Source: Synechococcus lacustris
Lineage (GTDB): Bacteria; Cyanobacteriota; Cyanobacteriia; PCC-6307; Cyanobiaceae
Direction: 5' to 3'
DNA length: 64,000 nucleotides
NCBI GenBank assembly: GCA_903943975.1
Contig: CAJAQB010000013.1
Coordinates: forward strand, 1 to 64,000
Positions 14,578 through 25,617 of the stretch are shown here, piece after piece. Made by a program: the position numbers and the translations under genes. Under the pieces are notes generated by a model that was not told the DNA's origin, made no database searches, and saw only the letters and a list, made by a program, of their open reading frames with translations. Positions within the stretch are counted from its first letter, which is position 1, and the number at the start of each line of letters is the position of its first letter.

Positions 14578-17016
14578 TCAGTTTTTTTCGCAGGAGCCGT
14601 AGCCAAACGGCCAGTGCCAATCATTCACGGCGGGATCGTCCATGCCGTGTTTGTAGGCGTAGGCCCGTTGCTTGAGGATTTCGTCTTGCATTTGTTGCTT
14701 GAGGTGGGCGGCCCGGGAGCCCAGTTCGGGCACCCGATCGATCACATCAATCACCAGGTTGAAACGGTCGATCTGGTTGATGATCGCCAGCTCCAACGGT
14801 GTGTTGATGTTGCCGTTTTCCTTATAGCCCCGCACGTGGATATTCACGTGGTTATGGCGTTTGTAGGTGAGGCGGTGAATCAGGAAGGGGTAGCCGTGGA
14901 AGTTGAAGATCACCGGACGATCGGTGGTGAAGAGATCGTCGAAGTCTCGGTCGGGGAGGCCGTGGGGATGTTCGGAGGGGAGGGTAAGGCTGAATAGCTT
15001 AACTACATTTATGTAGCGGATCTTCAGCGACGGCAGTTCCCGCCGCAGGATTTCGATCGCCGCCAGGGTTTCCTTGGTGGGCACATCACCGGCGGAAGCC
15101 ATCACCACATCGGGGTGATCCATGCTGTCGGTGCAGCTGTCATTGCAGGCCCAAGACCAGAGGCCGATGCCCCTGGCCACATGGCGGCGGGCGGCATCCA
15201 GATTCAGATATTGCAGGTGTTTCTGCTTGTCTGAAACGATGATGTTTGCCACATTCGTTTCCCGCAAGGCCTCCTCGGCCACCGCCAGCAGGCAGTTGGC
15301 ATCGGCCGGGAGATATACCCGGGTAACACTGCCTTTTTTATTGCCGGCCAGGTCGATGAAGCCGGGGTCCTGGTGGGTGAAACCATTGTGATCCTGACGC
15401 CAGACGGTGGAGGAGATCAGGCAGTTCCAGGAACCGATTGCCGCCCGCCAGGGCACGTCTTCGCACACATCCAGCCATTTGCAGTGCTGGTTAAACATCG
15501 AAGAGATCACATGGGCAAAGGCTTCGTAGGTGTGGAAGAAGCCATAGCGACCGGTGAGCAAATAGCCCTCCATCATCCCCACGAGGGTGTGCTCTGAGAG
15601 CATCTCCACCACGTGGCCATCCATGCTCAGTTCACCGCCATCGGCATCCTCTGGCAGATATTCCGCCATCCATACTTTCTTGGTGGTTTCATACACCGCC
15701 TGCAGACGGTTTGAATGGGTTTCATCGGGGCCAAACAGGCGATAGCGGCCGCGGTTGAGCTCGATTAACTCCTTGATTAATTTGCCCAGGGGGTAGGTGT
15801 TCTCCGCTTCGCTTTGGCCGGGGGTTTCCACCGGCACCGCCAAGGCATCAACGTCGGGCCAGCGCAGTTTCTGGCGCAGGCGACCGCCGTTGGCATGGGG
15901 GTTGGAGCCCATGCGCTGGTGGCCCGTGGGGGAGAGCTGGCGCAGCTCAGCCCGCAGGCGACCGCCCTCATCAAACAATTCCTCTGGCTTATAGCTGTGC
16001 AGCCACTCTTCAAGGGCGGCCAGTTGTTCTGGCTTGTGTTTGGGGTCGGTGAGGGGCACCTGGTGGGAGCGCCAGAAACCTTCGAGCTTGTGGCCATTCA
16101 ACTCGCTTGGCCCTGTCCAACCCTTGGGGGAGCGCAGCACCAACATCGGCCATAGGGGCCGGTAGGCCTTGCCGCTGCTGCGGGTTTGTTGCTGGATGGC
16201 GCGGATTTCCTCCACTGCCCCATCCATGGCGGCGGCCATCGCCTGGTGCATGGCGTGGGGTTCACTGCCTTCCACAAAGATCGGCCGCCAGCCGTAGCCG
16301 CGCATCAGGCTTTCCAGTTCCCCGTGGGGAATGCGGGAGAGGATCGAGGGATTGGCGATCTTGTAACCGTTGAGGTGCAGCACCGGCAGCACCGCCCCGT
16401 CGCGGATCGGGTTGATGAACTTATTGATGTGCCAGGCCGTGGCCAGGGGGCCGGTTTCCGCTTCGCCATCCCCCACGCAGGCCAGGGCGATCAAATCGGG
16501 GTTGTCAAAGATGGCGCCGCAGGCGTGGGAAAGCACATAGCCCAGCTCGCCCCCCTCATGGATTGAACCGGGGGTTTCCGGGGTGCAGTGGCTGCCGATG
16601 TGGCCGGGGAAGGAGAACTGCTTGAAAAAGCGCTTCAGGCCGATGACGTCTTGCGATTTGTCGGGATATACCTCGCTGTAGCTGCCGTCTAGATAAACCG
16701 GTCCAAGCATGCCGGGGGCGCCATGGCCTGGCCCCGACAGATAAATCATGTCGAGCTGGTGGCGGCGGATCAGCCGGTTGGCATGGGTCCAGATGAAGCT
16801 TTGGCCGGGGCTGGAGCCCCAGTGGCCCAGCAGGCGGTTTTTGATGTGTTCCGGCCGCAGGGGTTCCCGCAACAGCGGGTTGTCCTGCAGGTAGATCATG
16901 CCCACCGCCAGATAGTTGGCGGCCCGCCACCAGGCATGGAGCTGTTGCAGCTCCTGCTCGCCCAAGGGCTGGCCTGGGGTCTGGGTGGGGCTTGGGGGGA
17001 ATTCCGTTGTAGTCAT
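14578..17016 (-). CDS. xfp: Xylulose-5-phosphate/fructose-6-phosphate phosphoketolase
   Basis: 812 residues, full length. Typical sequences are the N-terminal WWRAANYLAVGMIYLQDNPLL, IWTHANRLIRR, GPGHGAPG, FKQFSFPGHIGSH, the ThDP motif GDGEAETGPLATAWH and the C-terminal RGYKENGNINTPLELAI. It cleaves xylulose-5-P (or fructose-6-P) with phosphate into acetyl phosphate and glyceraldehyde-3-P (or erythrose-4-P). Acetate kinase follows in the same operon, giving an ATP-yielding acetate route useful in the dark or in fermentation. Confidence 0.97.
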   Translation of the reverse strand: MTTTEFPPSPTQTPGQPLGEQELQQLHAWWRAANYLAVGMIYLQDNPLLREPLRPEHIKNRLLGHWGSSPGQSFIWTHANRLIRRHQLDMIYLSGPGHGAPGMLGPVYLDGSYSEVYPDKSQDVIGLKRFFKQFSFPGHIGSHCTPETPGSIHEGGELGYVLSHACGAIFDNPDLIALACVGDGEAETGPLATAWHINKFINPIRDGAVLPVLHLNGYKIANPSILSRIPHGELESLMRGYGWRPIFVEGSEPHAMHQAMAAAMDGAVEEIRAIQQQTRSSGKAYRPLWPMLVLRSPKGWTGPSELNGHKLEGFWRSHQVPLTDPKHKPEQLAALEEWLHSYKPEELFDEGGRLRAELRQLSPTGHQRMGSNPHANGGRLRQKLRWPDVDALAVPVETPGQSEAENTYPLGKLIKELIELNRGRYRLFGPDETHSNRLQAVYETTKKVWMAEYLPEDADGGELSMDGHVVEMLSEHTLVGMMEGYLLTGRYGFFHTYEAFAHVISSMFNQHCKWLDVCEDVPWRAAIGSWNCLISSTVWRQDHNGFTHQDPGFIDLAGNKKGSVTRVYLPADANCLLAVAEEALRETNVANIIVSDKQKHLQYLNLDAARRHVARGIGLWSWACNDSCTDSMDHPDVVMASAGDVPTKETLAAIEILRRELPSLKIRYINVVKLFSLTLPSEHPHGLPDRDFDDLFTTDRPVIFNFHGYPFLIHRLTYKRHNHVNIHVRGYKENGNINTPLELAIINQIDRFNLVIDVIDRVPELGSRAAHLKQQMQDEILKQRAYAYKHGMDDPAVNDWHWPFGYGSCEKN

Positions 17017-17142: not shown

Positions 17143-18498
17143 TCAGACCACCCGGGATCCGGAGGCTTTTTCCTGGATATCAGGATCAAACACGGCGGCA
17201 ATCACCCGGATCAACCAGCGGCCCCGTTCGGTGACGGTGATGCTGTTGCTGTGGCGATCGAGCAGGCCCTCCGCCTCCAAGTCCCCACACAGGGCCCACT
17301 CCTTGGGGAAAACACTGGCCACGTCCACGGCCAGGGGCGAGAAATCCACGGCGAAATGACACATCAATTCCTGGATGATGTGGCGCCGCAGGATCACCAT
17401 CGGATCCTTCACCTCCAAGCCCCGGTCCACCGCCAGTTGGCCTTGTTTTGTGGCCTCCTGGTAGGCCTTGAGCGAGCGGCTGTTTTGGGTGTAGAGCTCG
17501 GGGAAGAGGCTGATGGCAGACAAGCCCACCCCCAGCAGATCGAGGTTGGCGCGGGTGGTGTACCCCTGGAAATTGCGGTGCAGGGTGCCCTGCTGGGCCG
17601 CTATGGCTAGGGGATCGTCGGCGAGGGCGAAGTGATCCATGCCGATGGCCACATAGCCCTGGTCCAGCAGATGGCCATGGGCGTTTTCCAGCATTTGCAG
17701 CCGCTGTTCCCGCGAGGGCAGTTCCTCCGCTTTGATCCGCCGTTGCAACGGCAGCTGCTCGGGCAGGTAGGCAAAGCTGAACAGGGAAACCCGATCGGGG
17801 CGCAGGTTGCTCACTTCCCGCATCGTGGCGGCGAAGCGTTCCGGTGTTTGCAGCGGTAGGCCACAGATCACGTCGAGGTTGACGCTTTCAAAGGCCGCCT
17901 CCCGCATCCAGCCCATGGCGGCCCGCAGTTGTTCCACCGGCACGGGACGATTCACCGCCGCCTGCACGGCCGGGTCCACGTCTTGCAGCCCAAAGCTGAT
18001 CCGGTTGAAACCCAGCTGGCGCATCTGTTGCACTTCACTGCGGTCGAGCCGTTCGGGGTTCACCTCGATGCCGGCCTCCAGGTCGGCCTCCAGGGGGAAG
18101 CGTTGGGCAACCGCCTGCCACACCCGTTGGCGTTCCTCGGCATTTAGGTAGTTGGGGGTGCCACCGCCCCAGTGCAGCTGGGCGAGCGGTCGGGGGCTGG
18201 GCATGGCCGCCACCAGCAGATCCAGTTCCCGTTCGAGGGCATCGAGGTAGGGCAGCACCGCCTTGGAACCGGCGGAGGTGGTGATCCGGTTGCAACCACA
18301 GAACCAGCAGGCTTCCCGGCAGAAGGGCAGGTGCACATACAGCGACAGGGGCGCTGGGTTGGGTTTGGCCAGTTCCGCCAGCAGGTGGCTGCCCTGCACG
18401 CCGGGGTGGAAGGCCTGGGCGGTGGGGTAACTGGTGTAGCGGGGCACGGGACGGTCGTGCCGCATTAGCTGGTCGAGCGGCAGGGTGGCAGTGGCCAT
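17143..18498 (-). CDS. hemN: Oxygen-independent coproporphyrinogen III oxidase (radical SAM)
   Basis: 451 residues. The radical SAM motif is C60-x3-C64-x2-C67-x-C69 in LPFCREACWFCGCN. RPVPRYTSYPTA at the N terminus, HWGGGTPNYL, EVNPERL, RISFGLQDVDPAVQ and GMDHFALADDPLA are HemN signatures. It makes protoporphyrinogen IX without oxygen, supporting heme and chlorophyll synthesis at low O2. It lies 39 bases after the heme oxygenase gene in the same direction, so ho-hemN is probably one operon. Confidence 0.95.
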   Translation of the reverse strand: MATATLPLDQLMRHDRPVPRYTSYPTAQAFHPGVQGSHLLAELAKPNPAPLSLYVHLPFCREACWFCGCNRITTSAGSKAVLPYLDALERELDLLVAAMPSPRPLAQLHWGGGTPNYLNAEERQRVWQAVAQRFPLEADLEAGIEVNPERLDRSEVQQMRQLGFNRISFGLQDVDPAVQAAVNRPVPVEQLRAAMGWMREAAFESVNLDVICGLPLQTPERFAATMREVSNLRPDRVSLFSFAYLPEQLPLQRRIKAEELPSREQRLQMLENAHGHLLDQGYVAIGMDHFALADDPLAIAAQQGTLHRNFQGYTTRANLDLLGVGLSAISLFPELYTQNSRSLKAYQEATKQGQLAVDRGLEVKDPMVILRRHIIQELMCHFAVDFSPLAVDVASVFPKEWALCGDLEAEGLLDRHSNSITVTERGRWLIRVIAAVFDPDIQEKASGSRVV

Positions 18499-18537: not shown

Positions 18538-19245
18538 TCAAGCGGTGGCGGGGGTGGGGGCGAGATCAGCGAGGGCGCGCAGCAGTTTCTGATTGAGGCG
18601 GAAACCAGCGGGGGCTTCTTCCAGCAGGGCGGCTTCTTCGGCGTCGGTGAGGGGCCACTGCTCAATGCCGTCGTGCATTTCCTGCTTCAGCTCGGCGATC
18701 GGCCGCGGGAAATTCCAGAAGTTCACCGGGGGTAGCCCTGCCTTGGTGAGGATTTCATTGGCTTGCACGGCCAGTTGCTGGCCGCCGGAGAGGTCGCCGC
18801 CGTAACGCACGTACACATGGGCGAGGAACCGGGCCGGCGACTCCTTGGCCAGCGTCGTCAGGCTGGTCACCACGGTTTCCACCAGCGCATCGAGTTCAGC
18901 CAGCTCGGGGTGGTGGGCCACCACGTCGGCGTGGGCGGCCACGTCCTGCTCCAGGGTTTGGTGGCGGGAGAGGTCGGCCCAGGGAATGCCGCTGTGGCCA
19001 AGGCCATCGGGCAGGTTGGCCACAGCGGTCTCCAGGGCTGTGTAGATCGGCAACAGGGCACGGATCAGGCTGGCCAGCTGGAGGGGGGTGGCTTCCCCTT
19101 GCAGCAGCGAGCGGGAGAAAACCATGCCTTCGGCGTCGCGGTGGGCGGCGCCGATTACCCGGTGCAGTTTCTGGAGGCGGGGGCCCAGGGGGGCCCGACC
19201 TTGGTCGTGCACGGAAATCGGCAGGTTTGGATGGGAGGCAGTCAT
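18538..19245 (-). CDS. ho: Heme oxygenase (biliverdin-forming)
   Basis: 235 residues. LGPRLQKLHRVIGAAHRDAEG contains the proximal heme His (about H35). VYVRYGGDLSGGQQL is the distal-helix glycine motif. It cleaves heme with ferredoxin to biliverdin, the precursor of phycobilins. Next to hemN and close to acsF it matches the low-oxygen paralogue (HO2) of other cyanobacteria, inferred from context. The promoter region (19246-19307) carries the ACAACGTT motif also found before the hemerythrin operon. Confidence 0.93.
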   Translation of the reverse strand: MTASHPNLPISVHDQGRAPLGPRLQKLHRVIGAAHRDAEGMVFSRSLLQGEATPLQLASLIRALLPIYTALETAVANLPDGLGHSGIPWADLSRHQTLEQDVAAHADVVAHHPELAELDALVETVVTSLTTLAKESPARFLAHVYVRYGGDLSGGQQLAVQANEILTKAGLPPVNFWNFPRPIAELKQEMHDGIEQWPLTDAEEAALLEEAPAGFRLNQKLLRALADLAPTPATA

Positions 19246-19307
19246 GGGATCAGCTCGACTGCGTTAACGATATAATGGAAACGTTGTAATGACATGCTGC
19301 TTCGCAA
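19246..19307. promoter_or_regulatory. Divergent promoter region with shared AACGTTGT motif
   Basis: 62 bases between ho (minus) and the hypothetical gene at 19308 (plus). AACGTTGT at 19280-19287 and flanking TGA recur, in opposite orientation, at 22552-22559 before the hemerythrin operon. A TATAAT lies at 19271-19276 on the plus strand, and TTATAT on the minus strand next to the motif. It is a likely regulator-binding site overlapping promoter elements. Confidence 0.5.
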
Positions 19308-19670
19308 ATGATTGCTGTTCGTCTCGCTTCCGTGCTTTTTGCCCCTCCGGGCTCCCTCAGTGGCGATGGCCAGTTGCGGGAGGTGTTTGAGGAGCGCATC
19401 CGTGGCCAGGAACCCGCCGGCCGGGATCTCTGGTTTGTGTCCGCTGATCAGTTCAGTGAGCAGCTGCGCGATGCCCTAACCCAGCGGGGACCCCGACCCA
19501 CTGGGCCTTTGGAACTGCTGATCAGCAGTGAACCCCATCTGCTGGTATGGCTGCAGGTGCGCTTTGGTGGGGAGCTGCTGGAGCAGGTGGCCCTGCCGGG
19601 CGCTGGTTTCCAAGACCTGGCCGCCAGCCTGCCCCCCGCCGCCGCCCCAGTCGGTTTAGAGGTGCGCTAA
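19308..19670 (+). CDS. Hypothetical protein of the low-oxygen cluster
   Basis: 120 residues, soluble, no signal or membrane segment, not recognised. The first part reads MIAVRLASVLFAPPGSLSGD and it ends in a Pro/Ala-rich tail. It is divergent from ho across a shared motif-bearing promoter, and its 3' end overlaps the aldehyde-oxygenase-like gene by 15 bases. The position suggests joint control with the cluster, but its role is unknown. Confidence 0.65.
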   Translation: MIAVRLASVLFAPPGSLSGDGQLREVFEERIRGQEPAGRDLWFVSADQFSEQLRDALTQRGPRPTGPLELLISSEPHLLVWLQVRFGGELLEQVALPGAGFQDLAASLPPAAAPVGLEVR

Positions 19671-20360
19671 GGCGCGGGCGACGGCCGAAGTGCTGATCGC
19701 CATCGCTTCCTTGGGTTGAAAGCCGATCGCCACCAGGGAATCATTGAAGAGACCGCTGAATTCAGCCACCAGTCCATCGGGGGCGATGCCAATCGCCTCC
19801 AGGTCTGACCAGAGTTCCTGCAGGATTGTGAGGGTGGTGGGCAGTTCCCGGCGGCAGGCCTCAGCGATTTCCTCCCGGTGGCTGCTGAAATTGCGTTGCA
19901 GCCATTGCTCCCCATAGTTGAGGTGCAGATGTTCATCGTCTATCACCCAGGTGGTGATGCCCTTGGCGTAGGGGTCAGCCACCGGCAGATAGCAGTGATA
20001 GGCGGCAATTGCAAAGCATTCGATGATCAGGCACTGGATCACCAGGGGACGCACCAGTTCCCCCTGCTCCAGGGCACTGGTAAGGCTGTCGTGCAGGGGT
20101 TGGAAAAGTTTGCGAGCCAAGGGAATGTCGGCCTGCACCTTGAGATTGCGGCCACAGCCCACAAACTCCCGGGCATGGCGCGCTTCCATTGCCGCCAAGG
20201 CGAGTAGTTCCTCCCGGTCGGCGGGGATCGCATCTGCCAGCAGGCGGAAGTGATGGTCGGCGTGGTTTTCACCCATGATCACCACCCCGTTGATCAGGGC
20301 ATAGGCCTTGCGGTAGGCCTCGGTGCTGTAGTCGATGGTTGGGGCTGTGGAGAGGGTCAT
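19656..20360 (-). CDS. Aldehyde-deformylating oxygenase (ADO) family diiron protein
   Basis: 234 residues, close to cyanobacterial ADO length (about 231). All six diiron ligands of ADO are in place: E31 (MGENH), E59 and H62 (AMEARH), E114 (IIECFAIAAY), E143 and H146 (DDEHLH). CGRNL and PVADPYA are also family signatures. ADO turns fatty aldehydes into alkanes plus formate. No acyl-ACP reductase, its usual neighbour, is in the window, and here it ends a four-gene low-oxygen operon (ATGA overlap with the gene before). It may be a second paralogue with another substrate; that is inference. Confidence 0.85.
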   Translation of the reverse strand: MTLSTAPTIDYSTEAYRKAYALINGVVIMGENHADHHFRLLADAIPADREELLALAAMEARHAREFVGCGRNLKVQADIPLARKLFQPLHDSLTSALEQGELVRPLVIQCLIIECFAIAAYHCYLPVADPYAKGITTWVIDDEHLHLNYGEQWLQRNFSSHREEIAEACRRELPTTLTILQELWSDLEAIGIAPDGLVAEFSGLFNDSLVAIGFQPKEAMAISTSAVARALAHL

Positions 20361-21064
20361 CGGGCGATGGCAAGGGGGGGATGGAGGGGGGCATTTAGCA
20401 GCTGATGGCCCTCAGACCAGCGGTCGGCTTCAGCGCAATTGAGGCAGTCGTCAAACCAGGGACCCCCGAGGGTGTAATGCAGGATTTTGGCTTCGGAGGG
20501 GATCGACTGCACGTCCACCAGCACGTTCCATTCGGCTGGTAGGGCGCCAATTTCAGCGTCTTTTAACCAATGGAACTGGTGCAGTTCCAGGCCAGAGGCA
20601 GTGTTCACATAGGTGGGAGTGAGGGCGGTGCAGCGGCTGCAGTTGAACAACATCACCGACGACCAGTTCTTGCGCCGATAGGGGGTTTGGGGCATCCCCT
20701 GGAACTTCTGGCCAGCTTCACACTGGTGCTGGTGCTGAACCACCTGCACTGCCTTGCTTTCATCGCGCAGGGCCCAGAGCTCGGCGATGTCAGCGAGGCA
20801 GAGCATGTCTGCATCGATGAACAGGGCCCAGCCCTCGTAGCCCATCAGATAGGGCACGAGGAAGCGGCTGAAGGAAAAGGCCGTGCTCTGCAACGGATCC
20901 TGGGGCCGTTGGTAGACGGACCCCAGTTGTTCCAGGCGCACCTGGGCGATTTGCACCGGCAGGCTGGCGTGGGCCTGGATTGAATCCGTGAGCACATTCA
21001 CCGCCACCCGTTCCCGGGGGTCGTAGCCGATGAATACCTGGGCCACCGGCGGGTGGTGCGTCAT
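20357..21064 (-). CDS. Glycosyltransferase-like protein (nucleotide-sugar transferase fold)
   Basis: 235 residues. VFIGYDPRERVAVNVLTDSI at the N terminus, SFSRFLVPYLMGYEGWALFIDADML with a DAD metal motif, a WSSVMLFNC segment and ILHYTLGGPWF near the end are as in GT8-like transferases. The acceptor is unknown. Both ends overlap neighbours by four bases (acsF before, ADO-like after), so it is translated as part of the operon. A glycosyltransferase is unexpected between two diiron oxygenases. Confidence 0.78.
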   Translation of the reverse strand: MTHHPPVAQVFIGYDPRERVAVNVLTDSIQAHASLPVQIAQVRLEQLGSVYQRPQDPLQSTAFSFSRFLVPYLMGYEGWALFIDADMLCLADIAELWALRDESKAVQVVQHQHQCEAGQKFQGMPQTPYRRKNWSSVMLFNCSRCTALTPTYVNTASGLELHQFHWLKDAEIGALPAEWNVLVDVQSIPSEAKILHYTLGGPWFDDCLNCAEADRWSEGHQLLNAPLHPPLAIAR

Positions 21065-22074
21065 TGGCTGGCTTCCATCGGGTTGAACAGTTGGCGGATG
21101 GCATGGCCAGCAAACTGCAGTTTCAGGCCAAGGCTTTGGAAGCTACGTTGCAGCGACCAGTCTTGGGTGGCCAGGGATTGCAGTTGCTGGAAGCAATGCA
21201 CCAGGCCATCGCGGTGGGCCAGGAAGCGATCGTCGCTCAGCTTGAACACCACCGGGAAGGCCTGGCGGGCGGTGCGGTTGGTGGCTTCGATCACGGCATC
21301 GTCAAAACGGCGGGCATCCATGCCCAGCAGTTCGTAGAAGTCACTGCGTTCTGCCACCGTGAGGCTGTGGGTGAGAAACACCGACCAGAGGAAGAAACGG
21401 CTGAGCAGTTGACCGCGCAGCCCTTGGGTCATCTTCGGCCAGCATTGCAGCAACACATTGAAGATGTCGCCGTGGCGGTTTTCGTCTTGGCACCAGGGCT
21501 CGAAGAAATCAAACAGCGGTGCGAAACGGTTGCCGGGGTGGCCATCTAGATGGCGCTTGATCAGGATGTAGCGCCAGTAACCGATCTTTTCGGATAGATA
21601 AACGCTGTAGAGCACCCAGCTCAGCGGGAACCAGGTCACCGGCCGGCGGCCGCTCAGCTGGGGCAGGTCGAGTTCGATCCCTTCAGACACCAGGGCCCTG
21701 TTGAGGAAACCGGCGTGGCGGGCCTCATCCCGGGCCATCAGCTGAAACAAATTACTGAGCTCCGGCCGTTGGGCTTCCTTCAGGCGGCGGGAGAGTTCTT
21801 TGAACAGCAGGAAACCGGAAAATTCCGACACACAGGAGCGCACCAGATAGCTCTCGTAGGCCTCCTTCTCCTCCTGGGTGAGGGCCTGAAGGCGATCGAG
21901 GGGGGCACGGCGATCGAAGTGGTTGCGGTTGTGGTCGGCCTGCATTTCAGCCTGGAGGGCCTCAAAGCGCTGGCGGGCCCCCTCCAGGTTGGTTTGGGCG
22001 GCCTTTTCGATTTCGGTGGTGTAAAAGCGCGGGGTGAGCAGGTCTTCGCGCAGATGGGGGGCGGAGGTGGTCAT
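21061..22074 (-). CDS. acsF: Mg-protoporphyrin IX monomethyl ester oxidative cyclase (AcsF/ChlA)
   Basis: 337 residues from the ATG at 22074, which overlaps the hemerythrin stop as ATGA; a longer open frame upstream is an artefact of that gene. Diiron signatures are EFSGFLLFKEL, ARDEARHAGFLNRAL and WCQDENRHGDIF. The enzyme forms the isocyclic ring of chlorophyll using O2. Cyanobacteria often carry two copies, one induced at low oxygen beside ho2 and hemN; the neighbourhood here fits that second type. It is followed by the glycosyltransferase (ATGA overlap). Confidence 0.95.
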   Translation of the reverse strand: MTTSAPHLREDLLTPRFYTTEIEKAAQTNLEGARQRFEALQAEMQADHNRNHFDRRAPLDRLQALTQEEKEAYESYLVRSCVSEFSGFLLFKELSRRLKEAQRPELSNLFQLMARDEARHAGFLNRALVSEGIELDLPQLSGRRPVTWFPLSWVLYSVYLSEKIGYWRYILIKRHLDGHPGNRFAPLFDFFEPWCQDENRHGDIFNVLLQCWPKMTQGLRGQLLSRFFLWSVFLTHSLTVAERSDFYELLGMDARRFDDAVIEATNRTARQAFPVVFKLSDDRFLAHRDGLVHCFQQLQSLATQDWSLQRSFQSLGLKLQFAGHAIRQLFNPMEASQ

Positions 22075-22529
22075 CGGTGGGCTTGCTGCAGTTGAAGGGA
22101 TTGGGGATTGCTTTTGGCTTGTTTGTGCTGGGCATCGGCCCGGGCGTAGGCGATTGCATCGGCCCCATGGCGATGGGCGTGGAACCACTCCTGCACATCC
22201 ATTAGTAGTTGCATGCGCCGGATCGGGTCGTTCAGGCACTGGGGGAGCGCCTGCTGGACCTGTTGCTTGATTTCCTGGTGGCCGAGCCGGTGGCCGCCAC
22301 AGAGACTGCGTTCCGTAAGCAACCACCGTTCCTCCAGGCGCAGATGCAGCCCTAATCGCTGCACCAACTTGAGGAAACGCCGCTGCAACCCTGCGTCTGG
22401 GGCCTGGGCCCCATGGGCGGTGATCAATGCCTCCAGTTCCTGTTCAAGACCATCATGCTGGCGTTCCAGCAGAGGTTTGCGACTCAACCAGTTTCGGGGC
22501 CAGGGCCTCCTGGCCAATCGAAGCGTCAT
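22071..22529 (-). CDS. Hemerythrin-like protein
   Basis: 152 residues, with a hemerythrin-type ligand pattern: H25 (RQHDG), H62 and E66 (HLRLEE), H80 and H84 (HRLGH) and H119-x4-D124 (WFHAHRHGAD). Hemerythrins bind O2 reversibly at a diiron site. It is the first gene of the operon with acsF, coupled by an ATGA overlap. The simplest inference is that it stores or delivers O2 for the O2-using AcsF and ADO-like enzymes, or senses O2. Sequence identity to typical hemerythrins is low, and the call rests on ligand spacing. Confidence 0.72.
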   Translation of the reverse strand: MTLRLARRPWPRNWLSRKPLLERQHDGLEQELEALITAHGAQAPDAGLQRRFLKLVQRLGLHLRLEERWLLTERSLCGGHRLGHQEIKQQVQQALPQCLNDPIRRMQLLMDVQEWFHAHRHGADAIAYARADAQHKQAKSNPQSLQLQQAHR

Positions 22530-22639
22530 CGGCGGCTATCGCGGTATCACGACAACGTTATACTAAACATGCCGGGTCAGCACTGCCAGCCATCTGTGGA
22601 ACGCTGGTAGCGTTAGCCGAACTCACTCCTGATAACCCC
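22530..22639. promoter_or_regulatory. Divergent promoter/operator between hemerythrin operon and arsR-type gene
   Basis: 110 bases. ACAACGTT at 22552-22559 matches the motif before ho (19280-19287, opposite orientation), with TGA at the same flanking offset. On the minus strand TATAAC overlaps it as a -10 for the operon; TATACT on the plus strand could serve the regulator. The layout fits binding by the divergently encoded ArsR-type protein. Confidence 0.5.
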
Positions 22640-22945
22640 ATGGAAGCCCTGGCCGAGTACTTCAAGGTGTTCAGTGAGCCCAACCGTCTTGCTGTGCTTG
22701 AGGCCCTGCACCAGGGGTCCCTCAACGTGACAGCAGTGGTGGAGGCCACGGGGCTCAGCCAGGCCTTGGTGTCTAAGCACCTGAAGCTGCTCACGATCGC
22801 CGGGGTGGTGAGGCGGCGGCCCGAGGGCAGCCTCGTTTATTACGAAGTAATAGACCGTGGCGTTTTCCGGCTGCTGGCGACGGCCGAGAAGCAGCTGCAG
22901 GTGAGCCGTCAGCAGCAACTAAATGCCCTGCAGGCGGTGCTCTGA
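22640..22945 (+). CDS. ArsR/SmtB-type winged-helix transcription regulator
   Basis: 101 residues from the ATG at 22640; a longer open frame to 22427 covers the divergent gene's start and is rejected. EYFKVFSEPNRLAVLEALHQG and SQALVSKHLKLLTIAGVVRRRPEG (recognition helix and wing) are the ArsR signature. No cysteine is present, so the classical metal or sulfur-sensing sites of SmtB, ArsR or SqrR are absent. It is divergent from the hemerythrin-acsF operon and is the best candidate regulator of the cluster, where other cyanobacteria use the MarR-type ChlR. Confidence 0.9.
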   Translation: MEALAEYFKVFSEPNRLAVLEALHQGSLNVTAVVEATGLSQALVSKHLKLLTIAGVVRRRPEGSLVYYEVIDRGVFRLLATAEKQLQVSRQQQLNALQAVL

Positions 22946-22969: not shown

Positions 22970-23623
22970 ATGGATTACGCCGGCAACGCCCCGCTCCCCA
23001 CAAGCCTTGATGGCCTGAGGCAACAACTCAGTGAAGGTCGCCTTTGCTTCCCCGGTCTCCAGCTGGAGGAGGAGGACTTTGCTGATCTGAATCTGGCGGG
23101 CTGTGACCTAAGCAATGGGGACTTCAAGGCCAGTCGCTTCGGCCATGGTCGGCTTACGGGGGTGCGTCTCACCGCTGCCTGTTTGCAGCAGGCCCTGCTT
23201 TGGGGGGCAGATCTGTCTGAGTGCCAGGCCCATGGCTCCCAGTGGCATGAGGCCGATCTATCCGGGGCCCGGCTCCAGGGGGCTGATTTCCAAGGGGCCT
23301 ACCTGCACCGGGCCTGCCTGCGGGGGGTGATCGCCCCCCACAGCCATTGGCAGCAGGCCCGCTTGATTGAGGTGGATTTCCGTTCGGCCCTTGATCAACT
23401 CACCGACCTGGGCCAGGTGGATTTCCGGGGCGCCGACCTCAGCTTTGCCCAGTTCGGTGGCGCCCAGCTGCAAAAGGCCGACCTGCGCGGCACCTGCCTG
23501 TACCAGGCCAGTTTCCGCGCCGCCGACCTGCGCGGTGCCGACCTGCGCGGTTGCGATCTCTCCGACAGCGACCTGCGCGAGGCGCAATTGGATGGGGCCC
23601 AGCTGGAGGGGGTGCAGACCTAG
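22970..23623 (+). CDS. Pentapeptide-repeat protein
   Basis: 217 residues. From about residue 38 onward most of the chain is A(D/N)LxG-type pentapeptides (ADLNLAGCDLSNGDF, ADLSGARLQGADF, ADLRGADLRGCDLSDSDL), predicting a right-handed quadrilateral beta-helix. The first 35 residues are non-repeat. Function is unknown; such proteins are abundant in cyanobacteria and range from gyrase binding to transport. The stop overlaps the convergent AAA/ferredoxin gene by 4 bases. Confidence 0.9.
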   Translation: MDYAGNAPLPTSLDGLRQQLSEGRLCFPGLQLEEEDFADLNLAGCDLSNGDFKASRFGHGRLTGVRLTAACLQQALLWGADLSECQAHGSQWHEADLSGARLQGADFQGAYLHRACLRGVIAPHSHWQQARLIEVDFRSALDQLTDLGQVDFRGADLSFAQFGGAQLQKADLRGTCLYQASFRAADLRGADLRGCDLSDSDLREAQLDGAQLEGVQT

Positions 23624-25617
23624 CCCAGCACCACCAGCCAGCGGCCGCCGGCCCCCAGCAGCAGCGCCAAGCCGGAGCCCCACCAGAGCAGGCGGCCTTC
23701 GCCAAGCAACATCCTTCTCAGCAGCAGCAGGCTGGCCCCTACACCCGTAAACACAGCAGTGCTCTGGCAAAAGGCCAGCACATGGGGATCGGCACTCCAG
23801 CCCGGCCAAGCGGGCCCCAGGGTCACCGGCAGCAGCTGGCCCGCTTCGGCCATGGCTAAGGGCAGGTGCCGGGCCAGCAATACCCCCCAAACCAGGGGCA
23901 AGAGGCCGTAGAGCGTTTGGCGCCACTGCTCTGGGCTCACCAGGCGCCCTAGGGCCAGGGCCAGCAGGCTGGGCAGGCCCAGGGCCAGGGCGGCCAGGGG
24001 GAAGCGGGCCAGCGGGGGCAGGGCCTCCAGGGCCGGTTGCCAGTGGTGCAGGCACACGCCCCCCGCTAGCACCAGCAGCAGCGCCGGTTCGCCTTCGGGC
24101 ACGGTCATCTCCCGTTGCAGGTCGGCGGCGGGGGGGCGCAGGCTCAGCTGCACGGAGCGATGGGGACAGGCCTGGGCGCAGGTGAAACAGAGCACACAGT
24201 TGCGGTTGTCGCTGAGGTGGGCCGGGTGGGTGCCCAGGGGGCAGCCGGCGCTGGCTAGGCCCTCTCCTTCGGCGGGGCCCCCCTTGAAACAGGCGTAGCT
24301 GCTGCAGCTACCGCTGCAGGTGCCGGCCTGGGCCCGTAATTCCAGGATTGAGAGCTTGGCGAACAGGCCGTTCATGCCGCCCACGGGGCAGAGGTAACGG
24401 CACCAGAAGCGTTTTTCAAAACGCAACGAGCCCAGCACCGCCCCGGCGGTGATCAGCAGCAGCAGGCAACTGCTGAGCCAGGCGGTGGTTTCCAGGTGGG
24501 CCAGCTCTTCCCAGAGCAGGATCGCTGCAAAACCGGCTGCCATCAATGGCGAGGCCCAGCTGTCGCTGTTGCCCCGGGGCCAGCGGGGGGGCTGCCAGCC
24601 CAGCAGCGCCGCCAGCCGCTGCACGATCTCCCCCCAGACCATGAAGGGGCAGAAGGAACACCAGAGCCGCCCCACCAGGGGAAACCCCAGCAGGATCAGC
24701 GGCCACCACCAGGCCCAGAAGATGTTTAGGGCGCCGTTGTGGGCCCGGTCCTGGGGGCCAAGCCAGAGCCAGAGGTTCACCAGCACAAACACCCAACTCA
24801 CCAGGCCAAACAGCAGGCCGTTCCAGAGCAGGGGCGAGCGCAGCAAGTTGCGCAGCTCAGGTTTCCAGCGCCAGAGGTCAAAACGCAGCCGGGTTTGGCG
24901 GTTGGCGGTCCAAAACACGTCTTCCGGCAGTTGCTGGGGCAGTTCATTGCCCTGGATCCGGCGGGCCTGCTGCAGGGCCCGATAGATCAGCACCTCCAGT
25001 TCCCGCAGGTTGTTGGGGAAGTCGTATTGCTGCAGCCGTTCCACCACCCCGGGGGCCACGCTGGGTGGTTGCTTCCAGCCCAGCCCACGGCTTTGTTGGC
25101 GGATGCCGTAGCGCAGCCATTCCCCCAGGTCTTGGCGGCGTACCCGCAGCGGCGGCACCCGGATCAGGCGGCAGCGGCGGTCAAAGCTGGGCAGGGCCGT
25201 TTCGCTGGTAAAGAGCAGCCGGCCGGGGTGGCTGTCCGCCAGGCCTAGCAGGCGTTCCTGCAGGGCGGGGTCGGCCAGGTCCACGTTGTCGATCAGCAGG
25301 CTGCCGCCCTCAAGGCAATCGAGCAGGGAGCTTTGCTCACCGCTGCCCGGGGTAAACAGTTCGGCGCCATCGGCCCGCAGCAGGGCCGCATCCAGCCGAA
25401 TCAGCGGTAGCCGCCGTTCGGCGGAGCCGAAATGGATCAGGGCGGCCAGGTTGTCTTTCTCCAGCCCCGGTTCGCCCATCAGCAGCACCGGCTGGCGGCT
25501 GGGGTCGGCGGCGGCCTGGCGCACCGCCTCCCGTAGGGATTTGGCATAGCGGCTGCTGCCCACGATCCCCCGGCGGGTCTGGGCCACCAGATAAGGAGCC
25601 AGTCGCCGCAAGTCCAC
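23620..25617 (-). CDS. Fusion of degenerate sigma-54-activator AAA+ domain with NapH/NosR-like membrane ferredoxin
   Basis: 665 residues. Residues about 15-230 resemble the AAA+ and helical domains of NtrC-type activators (NNLRELEVLIYRALQQAR). The Walker A is altered (GEPGLEKD, 48-55), the Walker B reads GGSLLIDNVD (104-113, Asn for Glu), and no GAFTGA loop was seen. From about 262 there are several membrane helices with cysteine pairs C320/C323 and C406/C410 (CRYLCP) as in NapH/NosR/CcoG, a cysteine cluster at 434-459, and a 4Fe-4S motif C474-x2-C477-x2-C480-x3-C484P. More helices end the protein. It is probably a membrane redox protein with a regulatory head; its role is unknown. Confidence 0.82.
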   Translation of the reverse strand: MDLRRLAPYLVAQTRRGIVGSSRYAKSLREAVRQAAADPSRQPVLLMGEPGLEKDNLAALIHFGSAERRLPLIRLDAALLRADGAELFTPGSGEQSSLLDCLEGGSLLIDNVDLADPALQERLLGLADSHPGRLLFTSETALPSFDRRCRLIRVPPLRVRRQDLGEWLRYGIRQQSRGLGWKQPPSVAPGVVERLQQYDFPNNLRELEVLIYRALQQARRIQGNELPQQLPEDVFWTANRQTRLRFDLWRWKPELRNLLRSPLLWNGLLFGLVSWVFVLVNLWLWLGPQDRAHNGALNIFWAWWWPLILLGFPLVGRLWCSFCPFMVWGEIVQRLAALLGWQPPRWPRGNSDSWASPLMAAGFAAILLWEELAHLETTAWLSSCLLLLITAGAVLGSLRFEKRFWCRYLCPVGGMNGLFAKLSILELRAQAGTCSGSCSSYACFKGGPAEGEGLASAGCPLGTHPAHLSDNRNCVLCFTCAQACPHRSVQLSLRPPAADLQREMTVPEGEPALLLVLAGGVCLHHWQPALEALPPLARFPLAALALGLPSLLALALGRLVSPEQWRQTLYGLLPLVWGVLLARHLPLAMAEAGQLLPVTLGPAWPGWSADPHVLAFCQSTAVFTGVGASLLLLRRMLLGEGRLLWWGSGLALLLGAGGRWLVVLG

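Follow-up and report, generated by a model that had tools for sequence, protein, structure and literature searches.

Why a picocyanobacterium should carry a second chlorophyll cyclase, and with which partner that enzyme works, is the question raised by a gene cluster in contig CAJAQB010000013.1 of Synechococcus lacustris (assembly GCA_903943975.1; positions 1 to 64,000, a stretch of 64,000 nucleotides referred to here as the window). The cluster is built around AcsF2, a homolog of the Mg-protoporphyrin IX monomethyl ester oxidative cyclase AcsF. Canonical AcsF (G000:C9), canonical aldehyde deformylating oxygenase (ADO; G000:C1) and canonical Ycf54 are all present elsewhere in the source genome, so that AcsF2 and two of its neighbours, ADO2 and Ycf54L, are second, diverged copies. 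We consider it likely that the cluster is a picocyanobacterial low-oxygen tetrapyrrole module consisting of AcsF2 with Ycf54L as its helper, a heme oxygenase (HO), the oxygen-independent coproporphyrinogen III oxidase HemN and optional diiron accessories under ArsR control, and that a lineage possessing AcsF2 only has kept the AcsF2–Ycf54L pair.

AcsF2 and its Ycf54-like neighbour

AcsF2 (21061..22074, minus strand) scores 435 bits on NF010172, above the cut-off; the list of open reading frames (ORFs) gives it as a 421-residue ORF with a GTG start, and the ATG at 22074 yields a protein of 337 residues. A tree rooted on proteobacterial AcsF places AcsF2 with beta-cyanobacterial ChlAII (support 99/98) and apart from canonical AcsF, on a long branch (2.22), and the sequence identities are 48% to ChlAII, 44% to ChlAI and 36% to the proteobacterial enzymes. 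A midpoint-rooted tree had put AcsF2 outside all beta-cyanobacterial AcsF, as if it were a third lineage; the proteobacterial rooting and the identities identify this placement as a long-branch or rooting effect and it was rejected.

A low-oxygen chlAII-ho2-hemN cluster, with desF added in Synechococcus 7002, is known from that strain and from Synechocystis 6803, where the regulator is the MarR-type ChlR (PMC4500134). Since AcsF2 groups with beta-cyanobacterial ChlAII, the window cluster is, as judged from its sequence, the picocyanobacterial form of this system. Both have a ChlAII-lineage AcsF with adjacent ho and hemN, second to the aerobic enzymes, and a divergent small winged-helix regulator, and several relatives of the window also have a DesC/DesF-type desaturase. 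The window differs in adding Ycf54L, a hemerythrin-like protein, ADO2 and a family 8 glycosyltransferase (GT8), in lacking the desaturase and in the fast evolution of its AcsF2. Its regulator is of the ArsR/SmtB type without cysteine, whereas ChlR is of the MarR type with four cysteines, and for this reason we file the cluster as a variant and not as a ChlR regulon.

Ycf54L (19308..19670, plus strand, 120 residues) is, by sequence profile and predicted fold, homologous to Ycf54. When a profile of 36 Ycf54L sequences was compared with the PDB, the best matches were all Ycf54 (3hze with E = 1.4e-6, then 3jsr and three 5m2 entries), and a profile–profile comparison with canonical Ycf54 using hhalign gave E = 9.4e-6 at a probability of 83%. 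The top eight Foldseek matches of the predicted model (pLDDT 82) were all Ycf54 structures, and VIA Z scores of 8.2–8.7 were obtained for Ycf54 only, the next best row being 4.4. Ycf54L resembles Ycf54 (Slr1780; PDB codes 5M2P, 3HZE and 3JSR) in fold, size, linkage to AcsF and the residues A9, E22, E26, W78 and R82, which are invariant (36/36 for R82, E22, E26 and A9); it differs in its identity of about 20%, in the loss of D39 (kept in 4/36), F40 (7/36) and F13 (not conserved in the same alignment) and in its restriction to AcsF2-bearing genomes in the family sample described below. In Synechocystis Ycf54, loss of R82, and likewise the D39A and F40A substitutions, abolish the interaction with CycI (PMC5317394). 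Because D39 and F40 are not kept, we class Ycf54L as a Ycf54-like paralogue rather than as Ycf54 proper. Strong matches to its profile are limited to the family of the window; whole genomes of other cyanobacteria each give one weak match, consistent with canonical Ycf54, and within the family several weak matches likewise coincide with canonical Ycf54.

The distribution of the two proteins was examined in 121 genomes of the family, sorted manually by profile scores. All 31 genomes with AcsF2 only contain Ycf54L, and just one of them (G073, 85% complete) contains canonical Ycf54. Where both AcsF types occur (39 genomes), Ycf54L is found in 25 and canonical Ycf54 in all 39; the 44 genomes with AcsF1 only have no Ycf54L, and 42 of them have canonical Ycf54. 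These counts leave out a weak partial Ycf54 match in G002 (25.7 bits), and G016, G023, G059 and G078 were assigned to the group with both types by match counts or truncated copies. Ycf54L lies beside AcsF2 in convergent orientation in 31/31 AcsF2-only genomes, at a distance of 403–1510 bases. Many of these genomes are single contigs with a completeness of 99–100%, so the absence of canonical Ycf54 is not an assembly gap.

The AcsF2-only set includes low-light Prochlorococcus, since 16/16 genomes with named Prochlorococcus loci carry just one AcsF, which is an AcsF2, and give no match to Pfam Ycf54, and since a published table lists ChlAII as the only AcsF in NATL2A, NATL1A, SS120 and MIT 9313 (PMC4500134). 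In the AcsF tree the Prochlorococcus proteins are nested within AcsF2, sister to the cluster copy of locus L125 (support 97/94). As in the window cluster, the sole AcsF of low-light Prochlorococcus thus belongs to the AcsF2 clade and is adjoined by Ycf54L; unlike in the window cluster, the remaining genes, HO and HemN among them, are not found beside the pair, although MIT 0701 retains ArsR and has a repeat-like stretch upstream. L125 lies on a contig of a metagenome-assembled genome (MAG) that carries two AcsF2 copies, one of the cluster type and one of the Prochlorococcus type, and two Ycf54L genes; at its duplicate locus on the same contig, L036, a [2Fe-2S] ferredoxin gene stands between the copies. 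Although it comes from a MAG, the L036/L125 cluster is a possible intermediate.

Gene order, regulator and accessory genes

The hemerythrin-like gene (22071..22529), AcsF2, GT8 (20357..21064; 235 residues, PF01501 28.8 bits, above the cut-off) and ADO2 (19656..20360; 234 residues) follow one another on the minus strand, with ATGA at all three junctions, where the start codon overlaps the preceding stop. HO (18538..19245; PF01126 92 bits, HO2-like by context) and HemN (17143..18498; TIGR00538 487 bits) lie downstream on the same strand, Ycf54L is on the other strand between ADO2 and HO, convergent with ADO2 and overlapping it by 15 bases, and the ArsR/SmtB-type gene (22640..22945, plus strand; NF033788 above the cut-off) diverges from the operon. 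The initial annotation had described a four-gene coupled operon with 4-base ATGA overlaps, and its ORFs, coordinates and three junctions were all verified; family profiles agree with the identities that it gave to the four products, with the hemerythrin falling below curated cut-offs. It had also counted three diiron proteins, of which the hemerythrin-like protein and ADO2 have intact predicted sites, AcsF being assigned by family only, and its proposal of a micro-oxic module is supported as regards a low-oxygen-type module, with a ChlAII-type AcsF beside ho and hemN. Overlooked at that stage were the plus-strand gene at 19308–19670, now Ycf54L, and the canonical AcsF, ADO and Ycf54 copies elsewhere in the genome.

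About 23 more genomes in the family sample have a second ADO that has diverged, and the regions around these genes show the cluster again, with variations: ArsR divergent from hemerythrin-AcsF2-(desaturase)-(GT8)-ADO2, then Ycf54L on the opposite strand, then HO-HemN. Independent genomes share this order, their genes overlapping by −4 or separated by short gaps, and this recurrence makes the four-gene arrangement more than chance. When named genomes were searched with a fragment specific to AcsF2, matches came from Synechococcus, Cyanobium, Vulcanococcus and Aphanothece and from many Prochlorococcus, including MIT 0701. Genes were counted in 35 AcsF2 loci from outside Prochlorococcus, each no shorter than 12 kb and some truncated by contig ends: AcsF2 is present in all 35, ArsR in 33, HemN in 27, HO in 25, ADO2 in 21, Ycf54L in 19, GT8 in 13, hemerythrin in 12 and the desaturase in 11. 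The AcsF2 of one cluster (L050) appears to be degenerate, with ADO2 and a desaturase still open.

Cluster-type ArsR homologs lack cysteine in 27/29 cases, the protein of the window having none, and are confined to AcsF2 genomes (41/43) except for two genomes with fragmentary AcsF. An inverted repeat, TATNACG-N4-CGTNATA, precedes the operon in 42/45 relatives and HO in 26/33 at up to three mismatches, compared with 4.7% and 3% of shuffles, respectively, figures that are descriptive since the pattern was chosen after viewing the same sequences. In the window, the candidate operator TATCACGACAACGTTATA (22545..22562), directly before the hemerythrin ATG, is an exact match, and a second copy before HO (19271..19288) has two mismatches. 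The placement of the repeat, like its symmetry, hints at a repressor site, and ArsR probably represses both transcription units by binding at this shared repeat. A HetL-like pentapeptide-repeat protein (22970–23623, plus strand) nearly always adjoins the ArsR gene in cluster-bearing genomes.

ADO2 scores 234 bits on TIGR04059, against an equivalog cut-off of 222.65. All six diiron ligands are present in 24/24 sequences, as are C71, Q110, Y122, Y125 and D143 in the second sphere; ADO2 shares the ligands and the first four second-sphere residues with canonical ADO, from which it differs in its identity of 38%, its separate clade and ten type-specific substitutions, and no AAR was found among the ten neighbouring proteins scanned. 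In relatives, a DesC/DesF-type desaturase occupies a comparable position. Our best guess from these sequences is that ADO2 is an O2-dependent lipid or aldehyde enzyme and an optional accessory. GT8 is 69–75% identical in other clusters, yet optional. An ordinary operon formed by gene packing, in which ADO2 and GT8 serve a separate envelope or lipid function and merely share the transcript, would fit the adjacency of the two genes in most GT8-bearing loci, their joint inversion in L036 and L039 and their absence elsewhere; we nevertheless think it unlikely, though the best placed of the alternatives, because all 24 detected ADO2 genes are in AcsF2-bearing genomes and inside the same cluster, which argues that the linkage of ADO2 to AcsF2 is selective.

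Two flanking ORFs lie further out. One at 23620–25617 (minus strand), found near the cluster in several relatives, combines an AAA domain resembling that of sigma-54 activators with a NapH-type iron–sulfur membrane domain, which is odd since cyanobacteria are not known to possess sigma-54. Another at 14578–17016 (minus strand), directly downstream of hemN, resembles phosphoketolase by eye and could be part of a group of genes for fermentation or life at low oxygen.

Ycf54L or hemerythrin as a possible partner of AcsF2

The co-occurrence pattern leads us to favour, with reasonable but not strong confidence, the proposal that Ycf54L is a dedicated functional subunit of AcsF2, and that AcsF2-only picocyanobacteria, rather than evolving a Ycf54-independent cyclase, swapped AcsF1–Ycf54 for the AcsF2–Ycf54L pair of the low-oxygen cluster. 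The converse is that AcsF2 is Ycf54-independent and that Ycf54L, no longer a cyclase subunit, acts on HO, for instance, or as a regulator. The loss of D39 and F40, the N or T that AcsF2 carries at the position of CycI D219 and the 14 genomes with AcsF2 but no detected Ycf54L all speak for this converse. Beta-cyanobacterial ChlAII, however, has K at D219 and yet interacts with Synechocystis Slr1780/Ycf54 (PMC4500134), so that an altered D219 does not imply Ycf54 independence, and we dropped this residue as a marker. Ycf54L is moreover missing from every AcsF1-only genome and from no AcsF2-only genome, its A9, E22, E26, W78 and R82 are invariant, and in Prochlorococcus it is AcsF2, and not HO or HemN, that it adjoins. 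A role for Ycf54L away from the cyclase therefore seems to us improbable.

Several observations weigh against the module and the AcsF2–Ycf54L pair as proposed here. The Pfam Ycf54 score of Ycf54L is 18.3 bits, below the cut-off of 25, and the two residues that it has mostly lost, D39 and F40, are both needed for CycI binding in Synechocystis. The lack of detected Ycf54L in 14/39 genomes with both AcsF types means that cells with canonical Ycf54 can do without it. The AcsF2-only genomes are relatives of one another, hence 31/31 does not amount to 31 independent events, and the adoption of AcsF2 with Ycf54L as the sole pair may have been one evolutionary event. The inverted repeat was scored on the sequences from which it had been picked. 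Hemerythrin, ADO2 and GT8 are patchily distributed among AcsF2 clusters, and ADO2 appears broken or truncated in L069, L064, L070, L121, L085 and L132. With ADO2 apparently broken or truncated in several loci and hemerythrin absent from most clusters, neither is likely to be essential to AcsF2.

The hemerythrin-like protein (152 residues, HHE) falls below the Pfam cut-off (21.1 against 25.3 bits) and matches TIGR02481 with E = 2e-7, also below the NCBIfam cut-off. The seven ligand positions of bacteriohemerythrin and the DcrH-Hr domain, H25, H62, E66, H80, H84, H119 and D124, are kept in 19 relatives (H62 in 18), and the predicted four-helix fold ranks DcrH-Hr and other hemerythrins in its top eight rows (VIA Z 12.4–13.1), with other bundles following from 11.4. 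Unlike those proteins, it is small, stands alone and carries the motifs LHLRLEERWL and C-x-GHR. A PDB sequence search with its profile gave nothing useful and Foldseek E-values were weak, four-helix bundles being common, so the ligand pattern and the VIA ranking decided the assignment. Our best guess from sequence is an O2 or iron buffer or handler, again as an optional accessory. The initial annotation suggested that the hemerythrin could supply O2 to AcsF. A model in which the protein captures O2 and passes it on to AcsF, and also to ADO, keeping the cyclase active when oxygen is low, draws on the translational coupling and the conserved ligands, but we regard it as very doubtful, because hemerythrin was found in only 12 of the 35 long loci and not at all in the AcsF2 loci of Prochlorococcus that were examined, because the protein that tracks AcsF2 in AcsF2-only genomes is Ycf54L instead, and because we know of no case in which a bacteriohemerythrin within a cyanobacterium delivers O2 directly to a diiron oxygenase.

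A proposed low-oxygen module in picocyanobacteria

In the low-oxygen module that we propose, a fall in oxygen would cause ArsR to release the two transcription units. AcsF2 would then form the chlorophyll E-ring at low oxygen, HO would supply bilins and HemN would carry out porphyrin oxidation without O2, allowing chlorophyll, bilin and heme synthesis to continue. Ycf54L may stabilize or activate AcsF2 through the conserved Ycf54 face (R82, W78, E22 and E26), and the diiron accessories, the hemerythrin-like protein and ADO2, could tune O2 or iron and membrane lipids. The AcsF2-only lineage, including low-light Prochlorococcus, would have lost AcsF1 and canonical Ycf54, leaving AcsF2–Ycf54L as the sole pair.

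As far as the consulted literature shows, this type of module is already known. New are the partner gene related to Ycf54 and its strict association with AcsF2, the ArsR regulator together with the repeat common to both transcription units, and the accessories hemerythrin and ADO2; a literature search found no paper combining hemerythrin, acsF and cyanobacteria. The cluster suggests that freshwater picocyanobacteria have a low-oxygen regulon whose regulator differs from ChlR.

In the deep euphotic zone and in oxygen-minimum zones, a substantial share of the chlorophyll is made by low-light Prochlorococcus. Chen et al., writing in PNAS in 2021, are said to have proposed a Ycf54-independent cyclase for these organisms, an idea that is challenged by AcsF2-only genomes that keep Ycf54L. 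If their sole cyclase is indeed a low-oxygen paralogue with a Ycf54-like helper, then the view of low-light Prochlorococcus as 'Ycf54-free' would need revision, and the still unsettled role of Ycf54 could be studied by means of two diverged cyclase–helper pairs.

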